A DNA stretch of 55,939 nucleotides from Tissierellia bacterium (lineage in GTDB: Bacteria; Bacillota; Clostridia; Peptostreptococcales; Acidaminobacteraceae), in NCBI GenBank assembly GCA_012727635.1, contig JAAYGQ010000014.1, forward strand, positions 1-55,939. The letters are read 5' to 3'. The stretch's first letter is position 1, and each line of letters starts with the position of its first letter. The notes beneath the pieces are model-generated. The model saw only the letters and a list, made by a program, of their open reading frames with translations, did no database searches and was not told the origin of the DNA. Shown piece by piece: positions 31,683 through 47,399 of this stretch. The position numbers and the translations under genes were made by a program.

Positions 31683-32236
31683 TCCCTCTCCTTTATATAA
31701 AAGCTTAGAGCGGTATTTCCATATTTTTTCCTTCGCCATAGACTGAAGGATCCGATAACTTCTTCGAAATTTTGCTTGGCATGATGCTCGATTATAATTA
31801 TACCATCCTTCGCTAAAATGTCTAAATCTTTTATTCGTATCATGGCATCTTTTGCATAATCCGATGCATGGGGCGGATCAAGAAAAAGAAGATCAAAGGA
31901 TATTCCTTTTTCTTTAAAATCTTCTATGGCTTCAATATAGGATCCTTGAAAGAGCTCTGCTCTTTCTTCTAGTTTTGTCTTTTTCAAATTCCTTTTGATG
32001 CAATCCATAGCCTTGGGATTTCTTTCAACGAAATAGGCTTTTTCCGCGCCGCGGCTCAGAGCTTCAATGCATAGGGAGCCAGAACCGCTAAAAAAGTCAC
32101 AAACTACAGAATCTACTATATGGGGCATAAGAATATTAAAGAGGTTCTCCTTGACCCTGTCTACCGTAGGTCGGGTTGTTTGTTCCTCGATGGTTTCCAG
32201 AGGTATGCCTCTGGCACTGCCTGCAATCACCCTCAT
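31679..32236 (-). CDS. rsmD: 16S rRNA (guanine-966-N2)-methyltransferase RsmD
   Basis: 185 aa SAM-dependent methyltransferase. MRVIAGSARGIPLE, TRPTVDRVKENLFNIL, the SAM-binding CDFFSGSGSLCIEALSRGA and the catalytic LLFLDPPHA (variant of DPPY) are in order. Overlaps recG upstream and coaD downstream by four bases each (ATGA). Confidence 0.94.
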   Translation of the reverse strand: MRVIAGSARGIPLETIEEQTTRPTVDRVKENLFNILMPHIVDSVVCDFFSGSGSLCIEALSRGAEKAYFVERNPKAMDCIKRNLKKTKLEERAELFQGSYIEAIEDFKEKGISFDLLFLDPPHASDYAKDAMIRIKDLDILAKDGIIIIEHHAKQNFEEVIGSFSLWRRKKYGNTALSFYIKERE

Positions 32237-34152
32237 AGATTATATGCCTCCATTTTTGCTCGGTATTTTTTACTTAATTCATCGTTCATAATTGATGAGA
32301 CTCTCTCTAGGATTTTTCGGTGGCGGATAAGATCTGCCAGAGCAAAATCAAGTTCTCCACTCTGCCTCACTCCCCTAAGTTCTCCAGGGCCTCTTAATCG
32401 CAGATCTTCCTCGGCAATTTTGAAACCATCATCATACTTCTCAAGGATAATAAGTCTTTCAGGAACGGACTTTTCGGCACAAAGATAACAATTACTTTGA
32501 AAATCGTTCCTTCCTATCCTGCCTCTTATCTGATGGATTTGAGAAAGACCAAAACGTTCTGCTCCTCTTAAAAGGAGCACACTGGCTTCAGGGATATCCA
32601 TCCCTACTTCAATTACGGTGGTAGAGGCCAAAACACTGGTTTTTCCTTGACGAAAGTCTTCCAAGGTTTCTTCTTTTTCCTGGCTACTCATCCTGCCATG
32701 AACAATACCTAGCTTATCTTTAAATATTCCCTTTAACTCTTCTAGTCCCTCTTCCAAAGAAATAGTATCTAACTTTTCGCTTTCTTCTATTAATGGAAAG
32801 ACAATGAAGGCCTTACGCCCACTATGTATTTCCTCTAAAATATGTTCATAGACTTTACCCAGTTCCCTGGGGCGAATAATTCGGGTAACAATAGCCTTCC
32901 TTCCGGGAGGTTTCTCCATTAAATAACTGCTATCTAAATTTTGATGGAGAATCATTGAAAGGGTTCTGGGTATGGGTGTTGCACTGAGCATTAGTATATG
33001 GGGGGCGCCCCCTTTGTCATAGAGAGCTCTTCTTTGACCCACACCAAAACGTTGCTGCTCATCGGCAATAACGAGCTCCAAGGCCTTAAAGTTGACCCCT
33101 TCTTCAAAAAGTGCATGGGTGCCTACCACTATCCTAGCCTCTCCCGATTGAATATTCTTATAAATCTCCTCTTTATTTTTACTAGAACCAATCAAAAGTA
33201 GCACTTTGCCAGGAAAAAGACGATCCATGACCTGGGCTTGCTGTTTTGCCAAAAGCTCTGTAGGAGCAAGATAGGCTAGTTGATCTGTGGTCTGAAGAAT
33301 TTTCCAGATAGCGTAGTAGGCCGGTACACTTTTTCCGCTGCCCACATCCCCCTGAATGAGACGCTGCATTTGGCGACCCGAAGCTAGGTCTTTATCAAGA
33401 TCTTCAAGGACTTGAAGCTGGCCCTTTGTAAGTTCAAATTCAAAAAGCTCTAGAAACTCCTCTTGATTTGACCTTTTTAAGGAAGGCTTTCTCGGTCTTT
33501 CTTCAGCTAAATTATCCATAAGAAATAGGAAGAAATCATCAAAAATAAGCCTATACTTAGCCTGAGCATAGCTCTCACGACTGCTTGGAAAATGCATCTG
33601 AGTAATGGCCTCTTTTAGCTCCATAAGCTTCCATAAATGTCGGTCTTCCTCAAAAAGATAGTCTTCAACCTCACAAATCTCTAGGGCCAATTTTATAAAA
33701 CTTGCCATATCCTTTTGAGCTAGACCCTTTCGGTAGGGATAGATGGGAGTAAGAGTTAAAAAATCCTCCCAGTCCTCCTGGGCAAAAACAGGATGAACCA
33801 TAGAAAAATGTATTCCGCTCTGCTGAAGCTCGCCATAAAAATAATAATCTTTTCCTAAAGAAAATTTCTTGTCAAGATAGGAGGCATTAAAAAAAAGAAT
33901 CTGGATTACATAGCCCTGCCAGGCAAAATGCAGTTTCAGACTCTGCCGCCCTCCCCTTGAACGCCAATGTTCTTTGCTAATTAGTCGTCCACAAAAGCTA
34001 CCGGTGCTTCCAACTCTTGGCTCCAGGGCTTTTCTTCGATCTTCAAATTTTTTGGGGAACATATAAATAAGATCCATGGGAGTCATTATCCCCATGGAAT
34101 TTAAAATTTCTTCTTTACGCTTTCCTATGCCTTTTATATTTTGAAGCGTCAA
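32233..34152 (-). CDS. recG: ATP-dependent DNA helicase RecG
   Basis: Remodels stalled forks and branched DNA. 639 aa, slightly shorter than usual. N-terminal wedge/OB domain (1-200), Walker A GDVGSGKS at 268-275, APTELLAKQQ, VGTHALFEE, Walker B DEQQ at 364-367 (DEQH in most relatives), MSATPIPRTL, and motif VI QIRGRIGR. All helicase motifs are usable, in contrast to PriA in this window. Start is TTG at 34152 with AGGAGG seven bases upstream; a hairpin with a T run separates it from fakA. Confidence 0.95.
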   Translation of the reverse strand: MTLQNIKGIGKRKEEILNSMGIMTPMDLIYMFPKKFEDRRKALEPRVGSTGSFCGRLISKEHWRSRGGRQSLKLHFAWQGYVIQILFFNASYLDKKFSLGKDYYFYGELQQSGIHFSMVHPVFAQEDWEDFLTLTPIYPYRKGLAQKDMASFIKLALEICEVEDYLFEEDRHLWKLMELKEAITQMHFPSSRESYAQAKYRLIFDDFFLFLMDNLAEERPRKPSLKRSNQEEFLELFEFELTKGQLQVLEDLDKDLASGRQMQRLIQGDVGSGKSVPAYYAIWKILQTTDQLAYLAPTELLAKQQAQVMDRLFPGKVLLLIGSSKNKEEIYKNIQSGEARIVVGTHALFEEGVNFKALELVIADEQQRFGVGQRRALYDKGGAPHILMLSATPIPRTLSMILHQNLDSSYLMEKPPGRKAIVTRIIRPRELGKVYEHILEEIHSGRKAFIVFPLIEESEKLDTISLEEGLEELKGIFKDKLGIVHGRMSSQEKEETLEDFRQGKTSVLASTTVIEVGMDIPEASVLLLRGAERFGLSQIHQIRGRIGRNDFQSNCYLCAEKSVPERLIILEKYDDGFKIAEEDLRLRGPGELRGVRQSGELDFALADLIRHRKILERVSSIMNDELSKKYRAKMEAYNL

Positions 34153-42474: not shown

Positions 42475-43145
42475 TTTCTTCTACCTCTCAGGGACAATAG
42501 TCGCATAAGGTTTGCAACTCCCATTAGAGCAGCCATAACATAGGTAAGGGCCGCAGATTTTAGTACCGCTCTAGCTCCGGGCATTTGTGAAGTACCCAGT
42601 AAACCCTGATCTGTCATTTGAGCCAGAGCTCTTCTGGAGGCATCAAATTCGACGGGCAGGGTAATGATTTGAAATAATAAACCCATTGAAAAAAGTACGA
42701 TGGCGATGTTAATAAAGAAATTTGTACGACCAATAAATAAGCCCATGAAAAAGAATAAAGTCCAAGCCTGGGATGCAAAGGAAGCCACAGGAAAAAGCGT
42801 TGTTCTAAAGGCAAGAGGTTTGTATCCAAAGGCATGCTGAATTGCGTGGCCCACTTCGTGGCTTGCAACGCTTAAGGATGCAACACTGCGTCCATCATAA
42901 ACCTCCGGTGAGAGGCGTACAGTGTTTGTTCTGGGGTCATAATGATCGCTTAACATTCCACCAGGAGAACGATCAATGTTGACATTCAAATTGTTTCTTT
43001 GCACTAAAATTCGTGCGGCTTCTGCCCCGGTTAAACCCCGATCATTGGGAACTTTTGAATATTTCACAAAGGACCTTTGTACCTGGCTACTGGCCCAGAC
43101 TGAGAGCATAGAAAGTACTATAATAAGTAAAAAATATCCGTCCAT
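42471..43145 (-). CDS. YugP-family membrane zinc metallopeptidase
   Basis: About 224 aa from the ATG at 43145. An N-terminal membrane segment, then SHEVGHAIQHAFGY with the HEXXH zinc site near residue 95, and two or three hydrophobic segments (about 115-165 and 200-215). DASRRALAQM carries the likely third ligand region. Known as YugP or peptidase DUF; substrates unknown. The GGAGGT binding site is formed by the last codons of fmt. Commonly encoded between fmt and rsmB in Firmicutes. Confidence 0.9.
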   Translation of the reverse strand: MDGYFLLIIVLSMLSVWASSQVQRSFVKYSKVPNDRGLTGAEAARILVQRNNLNVNIDRSPGGMLSDHYDPRTNTVRLSPEVYDGRSVASLSVASHEVGHAIQHAFGYKPLAFRTTLFPVASFASQAWTLFFFMGLFIGRTNFFINIAIVLFSMGLLFQIITLPVEFDASRRALAQMTDQGLLGTSQMPGARAVLKSAALTYVMAALMGVANLMRLLSLRGRRN

Positions 43146-44059
43146 CAATTACCTCCAAAAATATCGTTTTCTGTAACAGGATTACCACGTAGGAATTCTT
43201 CTGCCAATAGGGCTCTTTTGCCCGGGCGTTGGAGCTCTTCAATGAGCACTTGCCCTTGGCCCGCTGCTACGTATATACCCTCTTTAGTGACTCTTTCAAC
43301 AGTTCCCGGTGATTTGGAAGCATCTATGTCCATTGCTCTAACTCTATGCAGAAGAAGGCGCTGGCCTTTTCTAAGGGTATAAGCTATGGGATTGGGCCAA
43401 AGAGCTCGCACAAGGCCTTCAATCTTCTGGGCCGATTCATTCCAATTTACTAATGAATCGGATTTGAATATTTTGCTGCAATAGCTGGCAAGGCTGTCTT
43501 GTTGAGGTTGGCTATGGGCCTTGTTACTCTCAAGTTGATCTAAAGTTTTTCGAAGCAAGGGAAGGGATTTTTTCATTAGCTCTTCTTCCAGCTCTCCATA
43601 GCGTAGATTCTCTACAGGAACCTCTACCTGAGCATAAATATCACCTTCATCCATTCCTTGGGACATTTGCATAATGCTCACTCCCGTTATTTTTTCTCCC
43701 TGGATAAGAGCCGTTTGTATGGGACTGGCTCCTCTATATTTCGGAAGCAGACTGGTATGGACATTGATGGCCCCATAGGGATAGAGTTCCAATAGATCCT
43801 TTGGAAGAATCTTTCCAAAGGCGGCGACCACCAAGGCATCGGCGGGGTATTTGCTAAGTTCTTCGGCTGTAGGCAAATACTGATACAGATCAATGCCCTG
43901 CTCTAAAGCAAATACCTTTACAGGCGGCGGCAGAAGTTTTTTCCCTCGACCTCTTGCCTGATCTGTGCGGGTCACAACGGCTAATATAGTATGATTTTTA
44001 GCTAAATCTTCTAAAATCCCCAGAGAAAAAAATGAAGTCCCCATAAAAACTAAATTCAT
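43145..44059 (-). CDS. fmt: Methionyl-tRNA formyltransferase
   Basis: Formylates initiator Met-tRNA using 10-formyl-THF. 304 aa. FMGTSFFSLGILEDL, ALVVAAFGKILPKDLL, the catalytic NVHTSLLPKYRGASPIQTA and QMSQGMDEGDIY are in order, with a C-terminal OB domain from about 205. Overlaps def by four bases; together with def it forms the formyl cycle, and fhs (55410 onward) supplies 10-formyl-THF. Confidence 0.97.
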   Translation of the reverse strand: MNLVFMGTSFFSLGILEDLAKNHTILAVVTRTDQARGRGKKLLPPPVKVFALEQGIDLYQYLPTAEELSKYPADALVVAAFGKILPKDLLELYPYGAINVHTSLLPKYRGASPIQTALIQGEKITGVSIMQMSQGMDEGDIYAQVEVPVENLRYGELEEELMKKSLPLLRKTLDQLESNKAHSQPQQDSLASYCSKIFKSDSLVNWNESAQKIEGLVRALWPNPIAYTLRKGQRLLLHRVRAMDIDASKSPGTVERVTKEGIYVAAGQGQVLIEELQRPGKRALLAEEFLRGNPVTENDIFGGN

Positions 44060-44535
44060 TCCTGCACTTCCTCTTCTTTCATAAGACTCTCATCCACAGC
44101 CTTATCTGTAAACAAAATACCCTTAAGATGATCTACTTCATGGCATAAAATTCTTGCAAAAAGTTCCTGGGCTTCTAGTTCAAGATGATTTCCATCGAGA
44201 TCTTGAGCTTTTAGCTTAAGTGAAATAGGCCTTGGCACCGGTGCTTGGGTGTCTGTAACACTAAGGCAGGCTTCGTAGGCTAATTTCTCTCCACTTTCCT
44301 CATAAATTTCAGGATTAACAAAGACTTTAGGGCCTTGATCATCATAAAGATCAACGACGATGAGTTGTTTTAAGCGGCCTACCTGAACGGCGGCCAGACC
44401 AACACCATCGGCTTCATGCATGGTTTCGATCATATCTTCCGCCAGCTGTTTTAATTTTTCATCAAAAATCTTTACGGGTTTAGATATTTTTCGGAGGATT
44501 GGGTCCTCGTCTTTTCGTATTTCCAAAATTGCCAT
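44056..44535 (-). CDS. def: Peptide deformylase with variant motifs
   Basis: Removes the N-formyl group from new proteins. 159 aa. Motif 1 is GVGLAAVQ (44-51, usually GVGLAAPQ); motif 2 is EACLS with ligand C90 (usually EGCLS); motif 3 is HEVDH with H132 and H136. Metal ligands and the catalytic glutamate are kept, so activity is expected, but the two substitutions flank the substrate pocket. Sits between priA and fmt as usual, 9 bases after priA. Confidence 0.94.
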   Translation of the reverse strand: MAILEIRKDEDPILRKISKPVKIFDEKLKQLAEDMIETMHEADGVGLAAVQVGRLKQLIVVDLYDDQGPKVFVNPEIYEESGEKLAYEACLSVTDTQAPVPRPISLKLKAQDLDGNHLELEAQELFARILCHEVDHLKGILFTDKAVDESLMKEEEVQE

Positions 44536-44544
44536 TTTATTCTC

Positions 44545-46779
44545 CTATACTGATTCAATGGGGTCTACTTCAACACTAAACTGCCAAGGACGACTTGCGT
44601 GAAGACTAAGGAGATGTTCTTTAATCTCACTGGGGTCATCGGCCGTAATAAGAATTTTTCTTTCTCCGGGAATCCACTGGCCAAAGCTTTCTGAAATATT
44701 GGCCCCATGACCCTGAAGTTCAAGAATCATTTCTTTGGAAATCTTATCAATTGTTTTTACATCCCCCTTTAAATGAATGAGGATATAAGAGCTAAAGGGT
44801 GGAAGTTTTCGAGCCTGGCGTAGAGCCATTTCTTTTTTTAAAAAGTTTTCTACATCACCTTGTAGAACGCCTTGCAAAACATAATTTTTTGGTTCATAGG
44901 TTTGAATTAGAGCTGTGCATTGCCGGTTTCCTCGTTCTAAGAACAGCTTTAGCAATTGAAAGCCCTTCTCGGCAGCCCGATAGCTTGGAATATGCAAGTA
45001 AAAATCTGCATTGATTACACCCAGAAAACTCACATCATAATCAAAGCCCTTGGCAATGAGTGAAGTACCTAAAAGAAGGTCCATCTTTTTCTCTTTTAAA
45101 AGCCTATGAAGTTTTATATACCCATCTTTTTCCTCCATAGTCTTAGCATCAACATTGACTATACGTGCCTGGGGGAAGAGACGCTGGAGTTCTTCTCTGA
45201 CCATTTGGATGCCTCCGCCATAGAAACGAAAGGCATTGCTACCACACTGGGGGCACTGATCCATAGCGGGACTCTTATAGCCACAGCCTGGACAAAAGAG
45301 GGTCTTCGTTTTTTGATCATAGTGCAAGCTTCCCCGGCACTGGGGGCAATAAAGTGCATGACCACACTTTCTGCAAAAAACATAACTGGCATAATTTTTA
45401 CGATTCATTAAAAGAAAACCTAGGCCTTTGTTTTCTAGTACCTGAGTGATTTCTTCAATCATTCTCTCACTTAAAGGACTGCGGTTTCCCTGGGACAATT
45501 CTCTACGCATATCCACAAGTTCAATTTTAGGGCGCTGTAAAGATTCTTCTACAAGATTAACTTTATAGATATCTTCTCTAAGATAAAGTTCCAGAGGAGG
45601 AACTGCCGACGCAAAGATCGTCTTGATACCTTGCTGCTGGCCATAAAAAGAAGCCAGTTCATTGCCGTGAAAATAGGGATGCTTCGATACATATCCATCA
45701 TCTTGGCACTCGTCGACAATAATGGTATCTACTTCTTCTAAGGGAAGAAAAAGACCCATTCTACTGGTGATCATAATGGGAAAACGCCCTTCTATAAAAG
45801 AAAGGAGTTCGCTTTTTTGCTCTTTAGGAGACATTTTTCCATGGTAGACTCCCACCAAATCTCCAAAATGTTCTTTAAAAAGTTCCACGGCAGCAGGCAA
45901 AAGAGAGGCATCGGGAAAAAGAAGAATAAAACGTTTTTCTTTTTCAAGGCTATTTTCCGCTAAATGAAGATAAATATTCCAAGCCGAAGATTTTTCTCTA
46001 TGGAGTAGAAAAAGACCACCCTCCTCTTTACTCATCTGCTCCAGTGCTTTTTTCTCTGCGGATTCCAACAAAGGAAGGCTTTGGAAAAATCCTTTTATTT
46101 GTCTATAACTGCTTGATATTCGTCTGGAAATATAAACCCTTAAGACAATTCCCTTATCCTCTAGGGTTTTTATACTGGAAAGGCTCTGTTCACCCCTTGG
46201 TATCATTTGGGGATAGTTATGGATCAGTTCTTCTATAATTTCTCTTTGTCTTTTGTAGCTCTTTGGCAGTTTGTTTAAATACTCTTCCAGTTCTAAAAGA
46301 GAATACTGACTAAGAAGCATTTCATTTTGAGGCAATTTAACTCTTTGATTGTACTGATACTGTATATTACAAAGACCCGATTGTCTTAATTTTTCCTCAT
46401 TGTCTTTGATACTAAGATACTCCCGGATTTGTTCATTACTTAGATTTTCACGCATGACAAAATGAGCTCTGGCCTCCACTCTTAGAGCTTTGGGTAAAAA
46501 AAGCCGACTGTAGGCCGCTGGGGGTATAGCGTAGTAGTGAGATAAGAAGTTCAAGGCTTCAAGGCTGGAAGCACTTAGAATTACTCCCGTCTCCTTCAAA
46601 ATACTTTTAGCTCCAGAGAAAGCTTCTTCTTCACCTAAAACAAGCCCTTCTCGCGGTACATTGCCGCGACCAAAGGGAACCAGTACAAGCTGGCCCTTTT
46701 GAAGGGTTTTGTTGCTTTTATAAATATAGGGACGGTCATAATCGCTCACCGCATCAAGAAGAATTATTCGATAATACAC
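44545..46779 (-). CDS. priA: Primosomal protein PriA lacking helicase motifs
   Basis: 744 aa. The fold of PriA is recognisable from end to end, and all eight zinc-binding cysteines are present (C469, C472, C478, C481, C496, C499, C509, C512). The ATPase motifs are not: where Walker A (GVTGSGKTE) belongs the protein reads REKSSAWN (261-268), Walker B DEEH is DECQ (356-359), SATPS is SAVPP (391-395) and motif VI QVAGRAGR is LFLERGNR (612-619). It probably still binds forks and loads DnaB partners but cannot unwind DNA. Start overlaps the gmk stop by one base; rpoZ and coaBC, usual between them, are absent. Confidence 0.9.
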   Translation of the reverse strand: MYYRIILLDAVSDYDRPYIYKSNKTLQKGQLVLVPFGRGNVPREGLVLGEEEAFSGAKSILKETGVILSASSLEALNFLSHYYAIPPAAYSRLFLPKALRVEARAHFVMRENLSNEQIREYLSIKDNEEKLRQSGLCNIQYQYNQRVKLPQNEMLLSQYSLLELEEYLNKLPKSYKRQREIIEELIHNYPQMIPRGEQSLSSIKTLEDKGIVLRVYISRRISSSYRQIKGFFQSLPLLESAEKKALEQMSKEEGGLFLLHREKSSAWNIYLHLAENSLEKEKRFILLFPDASLLPAAVELFKEHFGDLVGVYHGKMSPKEQKSELLSFIEGRFPIMITSRMGLFLPLEEVDTIIVDECQDDGYVSKHPYFHGNELASFYGQQQGIKTIFASAVPPLELYLREDIYKVNLVEESLQRPKIELVDMRRELSQGNRSPLSERMIEEITQVLENKGLGFLLMNRKNYASYVFCRKCGHALYCPQCRGSLHYDQKTKTLFCPGCGYKSPAMDQCPQCGSNAFRFYGGGIQMVREELQRLFPQARIVNVDAKTMEEKDGYIKLHRLLKEKKMDLLLGTSLIAKGFDYDVSFLGVINADFYLHIPSYRAAEKGFQLLKLFLERGNRQCTALIQTYEPKNYVLQGVLQGDVENFLKKEMALRQARKLPPFSSYILIHLKGDVKTIDKISKEMILELQGHGANISESFGQWIPGERKILITADDPSEIKEHLLSLHASRPWQFSVEVDPIESV

Positions 46780-47399
46780 TAAAGTGAAAATCCCCTTCCT
46801 GCTTTATCCAAATAAGTTAAAAAAGCATCGGAGACACTGTGGCTTTCAGCTTCCATAATGGCTAAGAGTTGGCGAGTTGTATTCTCGATATCATTATTGA
46901 CAAGATAATAATCATAGTCCTTAAGATATTTGAGCTCATCCATTGCACAGCTTAGTCTTTGTGCGATAGCCTCTTCACTTTCAGTGCCTCGGCTACTTAG
47001 TCGTTCTTCAAGCATATTTAAATTGGGGGGAAGAACAAAAATTAAAACCGCGTCTTCTCCCATTTTCCTTATTTGCCCTGCTCCGAGCATCTCGATTTCT
47101 AGAATTACATCTTCACCCCGGGCAAGGTGTTTTTCAAGTTCCCTTTGGGGTGTGCCATAATAATTACCATAAACTTCGGCCCATTCAGCAAAAGCTCCTT
47201 CATCAATCATTTTCTTAAAATTGTCTTTACTGATAAAGTGATAGCTCTTTGCCTCTTCTTCATTAAAACGAGGCTCTCTTGATGTATAAGAAATACTAAG
47301 ATGCAAACTTCTTTGTTTTAACACATCTCTTACTAAAGTACCTTTTCCTACACCAGAGGGACCACTAATAACAAAGACACGTCCTCTTCTTTTAAACAT
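46779..47399 (-). CDS. gmk: Guanylate kinase
   Basis: Phosphorylates GMP to GDP. 206 aa. P-loop VFVISGPSGVGKGTLVRDVL at 8-27, SYTSREPR, GAFAEWAEVYGNYYGTP and VILEIEMLGAGQI are conserved. GGAG is placed before the ATG; follows yicC after two bases. Confidence 0.96.
   Translation of the reverse strand: MFKRRGRVFVISGPSGVGKGTLVRDVLKQRSLHLSISYTSREPRFNEEEAKSYHFISKDNFKKMIDEGAFAEWAEVYGNYYGTPQRELEKHLARGEDVILEIEMLGAGQIRKMGEDAVLIFVLPPNLNMLEERLSSRGTESEEAIAQRLSCAMDELKYLKDYDYYLVNNDIENTTRQLLAIMEAESHSVSDAFLTYLDKAGRGFSL

Follow-up and report, generated by a model that had tools for sequence, protein, structure and literature searches.

A clade-wide clostridial PriA with a degraded ATP site under purifying selection, and repeated loss of PriA helicase motifs in Clostridia

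We found that the PriA encoded in the window, the 55,939-nucleotide stretch of Tissierellia bacterium DNA analysed here, is a real, clade-wide form of this protein under selection, in which P-loop ATP binding and hydrolysis have, to judge from the sequence, almost certainly been lost. Very probably it is an orthologous chromosomal PriA that turned into a pseudohelicase and is kept as a structure-specific switch, which binds forks and D-loops and recruits the replisome. A PriA of this kind is already known, and the added value of our case lies in repeated modular loss: loss of the motor recurs in Clostridia and is fixed in culturable acetogens, which is new here.

The gene lies in the usual clostridial operon order (yicC, gmk, priA, def, fmt, yugP, rsmB, prpC, prkC, rsgA), starts with GTG, overlaps the end of gmk by a single base and contains no internal stops. 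Its product matches the TIGR00595 (PriA) profile over its full length with 332 bits (curated cut-off 230.35), and its 3'-binding domain matches PF17764 with 28.5 bits (cut-off 22.7). On re-reading, the reading frame, strand, length and all peptides quoted in an earlier note on this DNA were correct. That note had asked for a second, intact priA; none was detected in the window's genome, which is 92% complete, the other four TIGR00595 matches being weak helicase matches of 26-47 bits. A search for related loci with the PriA protein alone as query gave no matches. The features are as follows.

44545..46779, minus strand: putative priA pseudohelicase gene, 744 aa (open reading frame and TIGR00595 match)
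46465..46779, minus strand: 3'-binding domain, residues 1-105 (PF17764; 9/9 conserved columns kept)
46105..46464, minus strand: winged-helix region, residues 106-225 (conserved-column count and AlphaFold2 model)
45976..45999, minus strand: former Walker A or motif I, REKSSAWN, residues 261-268 (alignment; no GK[ST], one residue deleted)
45703..45714, minus strand: motif II, DECQ, residues 356-359 (alignment; D and E kept, EEAQ in the sister species)
45595..45609, minus strand: motif III, SAVPP, residues 391-395 (alignment; consensus SATPS)
45244..45375, minus strand: cysteine-rich (zinc) region with eight cysteines, residues 469-512 (cysteine reading)
45046..45069, minus strand: motif V, GTSLIAKG, residues 571-578, kept (alignment)
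44923..44946, minus strand: motif VI, LFLERGNR, residues 612-619 (alignment; consensus QVAGRAGR, glutamine and glycines lost, both arginines kept)
44548..44859, minus strand: C-terminal domain, residues 641-744 (conserved-column count and AlphaFold2 model)
46779..47399, minus strand: gmk, operon neighbour upstream of priA (open reading frame and neighbour comparison)
44056..44535, minus strand: def, neighbour downstream of priA (open reading frame and neighbour comparison)
43145..44059, minus strand: fmt, neighbour downstream of priA (open reading frame and neighbour comparison)
32233..34152, minus strand: recG with intact motifs GSGKS, DEQQ, SATPIPRT and QIRGRIGR (motif reading)

We aligned the window PriA with PriAs of its own family and order, drawn from 19 further genera of the family and from several families elsewhere in the order. 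GK[ST] and GRxGR are kept in every other readable PriA of this alignment except that of a sister species (G001, the published MAG DTU036; 52% PriA identity to the window), which is the one further member of the genus whose PriA could be read. Walker A reads REKSSA-WN in the window and RENTQA-LD in the sister, against GVTGSGKT in relatives: in both species of the genus the glycines and GK[ST] are gone and one residue is deleted, so that the loss is shared by the clade, and this P-loop is, as far as can be read from sequence, the decisive damage. A frameshift hiding the P-loop was ruled out, as GK[ST] is found in no other frame of either species. Motif III has become SAVPP in the window and SSVPG in the sister, and motif VI reads LFLERGNR and RFLERGRP, with R616 and R619 both kept in the window and one arginine surviving in the sister. 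The signatures of an active helicase, GxxGSGK[ST] in Walker A and QxxGRxGR in motif VI, are thus absent from both proteins. Among 39 intact PriAs, 116 columns show at least 90% conservation; of these, the window protein retains 7/20 in motifs I, II, III and VI versus 67/96 elsewhere (Fisher p=0.005), and the sister 3/20 versus 63/96 (p=4e-5), a concentration of losses beyond chance.

The earlier note had described all helicase motifs as eroded, which holds for Walker A, III and VI but is too strong for the remainder, since motif V, the conserved positions of Ia/Ib and the two motif VI arginines are kept in the window protein. DECQ, which it had read as an eroded DEEH, should not be counted as damage: it retains the acidic pair, the nearest relatives (g6) carry DECQ or DEAQ alongside an intact GVxASGKS P-loop, and a PriA of another family (L140) combines DEEQ with an intact P-loop. 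DExQ is also the motif II of Mfd. The peptide SAVPP was rightly reported and motif III is degraded, but its point of departure was not SATPS; it grew out of the already shifted SSTPP of the g6 relatives. The acidic residues, motif V and the arginines that remain could suggest that a degenerate ATP site still functions by way of an atypical nucleotide-binding loop. We regard this as scarcely credible, because the loop has no glycine and no lysine at the GK position besides its deletion, in the sister the aspartate of motif II and an arginine of motif VI are missing as well, and in E. coli PriA the exchange K230R alone abolishes ATPase activity (as cited in PMC4504706).

The DNA-binding and zinc modules have remained. 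All nine conserved columns of the 3'-binding domain and all ten of the zinc region are kept in the window protein, the latter including the eight cysteines (469/472/478/481/496/499/509/512), in agreement with the zinc sites first reported as intact. K58 aligns with E. coli K61, a residue of the 3'-OH pocket. The AlphaFold2 model is confident over the full chain (pLDDT 88.6, pTM 0.86), PriA structures head its Foldseek matches (4nl4, E 1e-40), and VIA-align places 647 residues on 4nl4 with Z 28.6; the model confidently predicts that the PriA fold is retained.

A pairwise codon model of the two genus members (window versus G001) rejected omega=1 not only for the gene as a whole (2dlnL 296) but also for each part taken separately: lobe 1 (96), lobe 2 (93), the zinc region (30), the 3'-binding domain (42), the winged helix (56) and, most weakly, the C-terminal domain (11); dS is saturated and some fits lie at the distance bound, so that omega itself is not quotable. 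Neutral evolution is thus rejected, even within the dead helicase lobes. In this genus (g1), priA is the fastest gene of its operon (52% identity versus 58-80% for the neighbours), and this excess of about 1.5-fold amino-acid divergence is equalled in g6 and g20, where the P-loop is intact. Taken together, selection and this shared excess indicate that constraint was lifted from the ATP site but not from the protein. The gene therefore unites what is expected of a pseudohelicase in sequence, namely a lost Walker A, retained DNA-binding and zinc parts, and purifying selection. These features support the proposal of the earlier note that an ATPase-dead PriA may serve as a structural scaffold. 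They also bear out its view that this is no random pseudogene: the reading frames of 744 and 750 aa have no stops, selection is purifying and the loss is common to the clade. Of the two signs that it had named for a pseudogene, intact relatives were found, but stop codons in the window copy were not.

A tree of six concatenated neighbour genes groups g1 with g6 and g20 (support 100/100), three genera in which gmk and priA are directly adjacent, with about 1.5 kb between the two genes in relatives. The PriA tree places g1 beside g6 (SH-aLRT 98). From these groupings, the loss most likely occurred after the g6 split and before the split of the two g1 species, and since intact relatives surround the genus, it appears to be recent and lineage-wide. 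In a third species of the genus (G002), the apparent absence of priA is probably due to an assembly gap, since gmk is missing too and fmt sits at the edge of a contig.

In a survey of about 780 clostridial genomes, 394 from the order and 392 (at least 95% complete) from the class, PriAs were ranked by score, and motifs were read in the low scorers. Three more cases have lost Walker A, III and VI and kept the eight cysteines: G271 (L074), G058 (L075) and the family f56, the Eubacteriaceae. In the latter, 12/12 PriAs read are dead (L143-L146, L148-L150, L152-L156), from six genera and including several closed genomes, among them Acetobacterium woodii (L143) and Eubacterium limosum (L148). HydA1 from the L143 genome matches PDB 7q4v/8a5e over all 583 residues, the HydA1 of which we take to be that of A. 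woodii. The PriA of A. woodii is likewise predicted to fold as PriA (pLDDT 85). A single origin of all dead PriAs was rejected: neighbour genes do not allow g1 to be joined with f56, f10 or f12 (AU p 4e-66, 6e-40 and 8e-8), which sets g1 apart from G271 and G058 as well; the PriA tree alone rejected g1 with G271 (p=0.03), but not g1 with f56 (p=0.17) or G271 with f56 (p=0.25). G271 counts as a separate loss because its congeners L071, L135 and L137 have intact PriAs, and f12 (G058) and f56 may go back to one shared loss (p=0.18 on neighbour genes). Clostridia have thus lost the motor independently at least three times while retaining the zinc domain. This is a lower bound, because a single K-to-R change of the Deinococcus type would not depress the score far enough for the motifs to be read.

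The outcome in f12 speaks against our explanation. In G047, a genome given as 100% complete, PriA could not be detected, and its priA operon was not found in the 1.14 Mb covered; its congener is G058, with the strongly eroded PriA, so that erosion can also precede loss. PriA might accordingly be drifting towards loss under relaxed selection while restart has moved to another route, and the pace of priA relative to its operon in g1 and the small genomes in several lineages with altered PriA would fit this. We nevertheless consider such a drift unlikely as an account of the window protein: the codon model rejects omega=1 for the helicase lobes themselves, the conserved zinc and 3'-binding columns are complete, the excess in g1 is no larger than in genera that keep the P-loop, and the dead form persists across six Eubacteriaceae genera with genomes of 2-4.4 Mb. 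Elsewhere, G736 (f15, 98% complete) gave no TIGR00595 match at E 1e-20, and in L142, L160 and L159 (G716, G533) priA is split over two frames with in-frame stops, which may reflect decay of the gene, sequencing error or recoding.

The mirror image of motor loss was found in three species of one genus (L078, L079 and L080, from G086, G244 and G195), whose PriAs keep 19-20/20 helicase-motif columns and have the whole eight-cysteine region deleted in frame; their congener L134 has both. PriA may thus consist of two modules that can be discarded separately, the motor having been lost at least three times in Clostridia and the zinc module deleted in one other genus, with unwinding as an accessory that restart can dispense with once the loader system or the fork substrates have changed. 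We put this forward tentatively, as a possibility somewhat short of the probable. Another PriA from the genus of the zinc-less proteins (L076, G276) mostly keeps its helicase motifs (with DEEQ), has partly lost the cysteines and is evolving fast.

The pseudohelicase reading is in line with what is known of PriA in other bacteria. E. coli PriA is switched by the fork itself: a pivoting movement of the cysteine-rich region creates a pore that accommodates the lagging-strand ssDNA and uncovers a partner site; the K230A protein loads DnaB in vitro, and PriA-PriB restart in vivo does not require ATPase activity (PMC10175261). A motorless PriA with fork-binding and cysteine modules would be a form that such a fork-driven switch allows. 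In the window's lineage, docking on the fork would fall to the 3'-binding domain and winged helix, and holding of the lagging-strand ssDNA to the dead helicase lobes and cysteine-rich domain, and exposed surfaces would recruit the DnaD/AAA+ loader system so that the replicative helicase is loaded. Fork binding and recruitment are presumed here by analogy, and without a motor, the lagging template would already have to be single-stranded at the fork or be made so by other enzymes.

The PriA of Deinococcus radiodurans, which binds forks and DnaB without ATP hydrolysis (PMC4504706), is a better-documented precedent than the actinobacterial one offered in the earlier note. Like the window protein, it is a PriA ortholog that has no working Walker A, keeps its DNA-binding parts and has no PriB partner. 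It differs in that Deinococcus-Thermus PriAs carry a K to R change in Walker A and a poor motif II, and their lack of ATPase was measured; in the window protein, from a separate phylum and known from sequence alone, the whole P-loop, III and VI are degraded. The E. coli K230R and K230A proteins (priA300) are likewise ATPase-dead and support restart (PMC10175261, PMC4752480), but they are laboratory point mutants with other motifs intact that use PriB/DnaT, not DnaD. With canonical clostridial or Bacillus-type PriA (TIGR00595), the window protein shares domain order, locus, zinc cysteines and fold, but not the Walker A, motif III and motif VI retained there. The Eubacteriaceae proteins have lost the same three motifs and kept the eight cysteines, although by a separate loss in another order and with other residues in the motifs.

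The almost universal conservation of the PriA motor is puzzling, given that E. coli is able to restart replication in its absence. The natural losses, one of them fixed in cultured and industrially used acetogens, provide ready comparisons from which one could learn for which substrates restart requires unwinding and what takes its place. They also call for caution in annotation: the window copy and 14 other dead copies exceed the TIGR00595 cut-off, and a protein named 'replication restart helicase PriA' by this profile can, by its motifs, be ATPase-dead.

As to partners, DnaD is present in all three genomes of the genus, and in the two besides the window's genome an AAA+ loader gene adjoins it. 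The apparent lack of DnaD in the window genome is explained by the gene being cut at a contig end. The DnaD domain (PF07261) scores 20-35 bits in g1, g6 and g20, with no match in G021, and 35-83 bits in the other genomes searched; these low scores, in the clade with fast-evolving PriA, hint at joint divergence of PriA and DnaD. Such divergence, together with the loss of the motor from a protein that keeps its recruitment surfaces, might mean that the dead PriA has changed its job, for example to an accessory for helicase loading at oriC only. This is very unlikely in our view, as the fork-specific 3'-binding domain is fully conserved and positive evidence for a new role was not found, and we favour a fork-binding, replisome-recruiting PriA.

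RecG, which the earlier note had suggested as the supplier of fork remodelling, is intact in the window but near-universal, and the helicase-dead priA300 suppresses recG defects in E. coli (PMC4752480). Evidence for such a supply was not found, and compensation by RecG is not supported; the suppression points to less, not more, dependence on it. Motif II of the window RecG reads DEQQ, not the usual DEQH, in parallel to DECQ in PriA.
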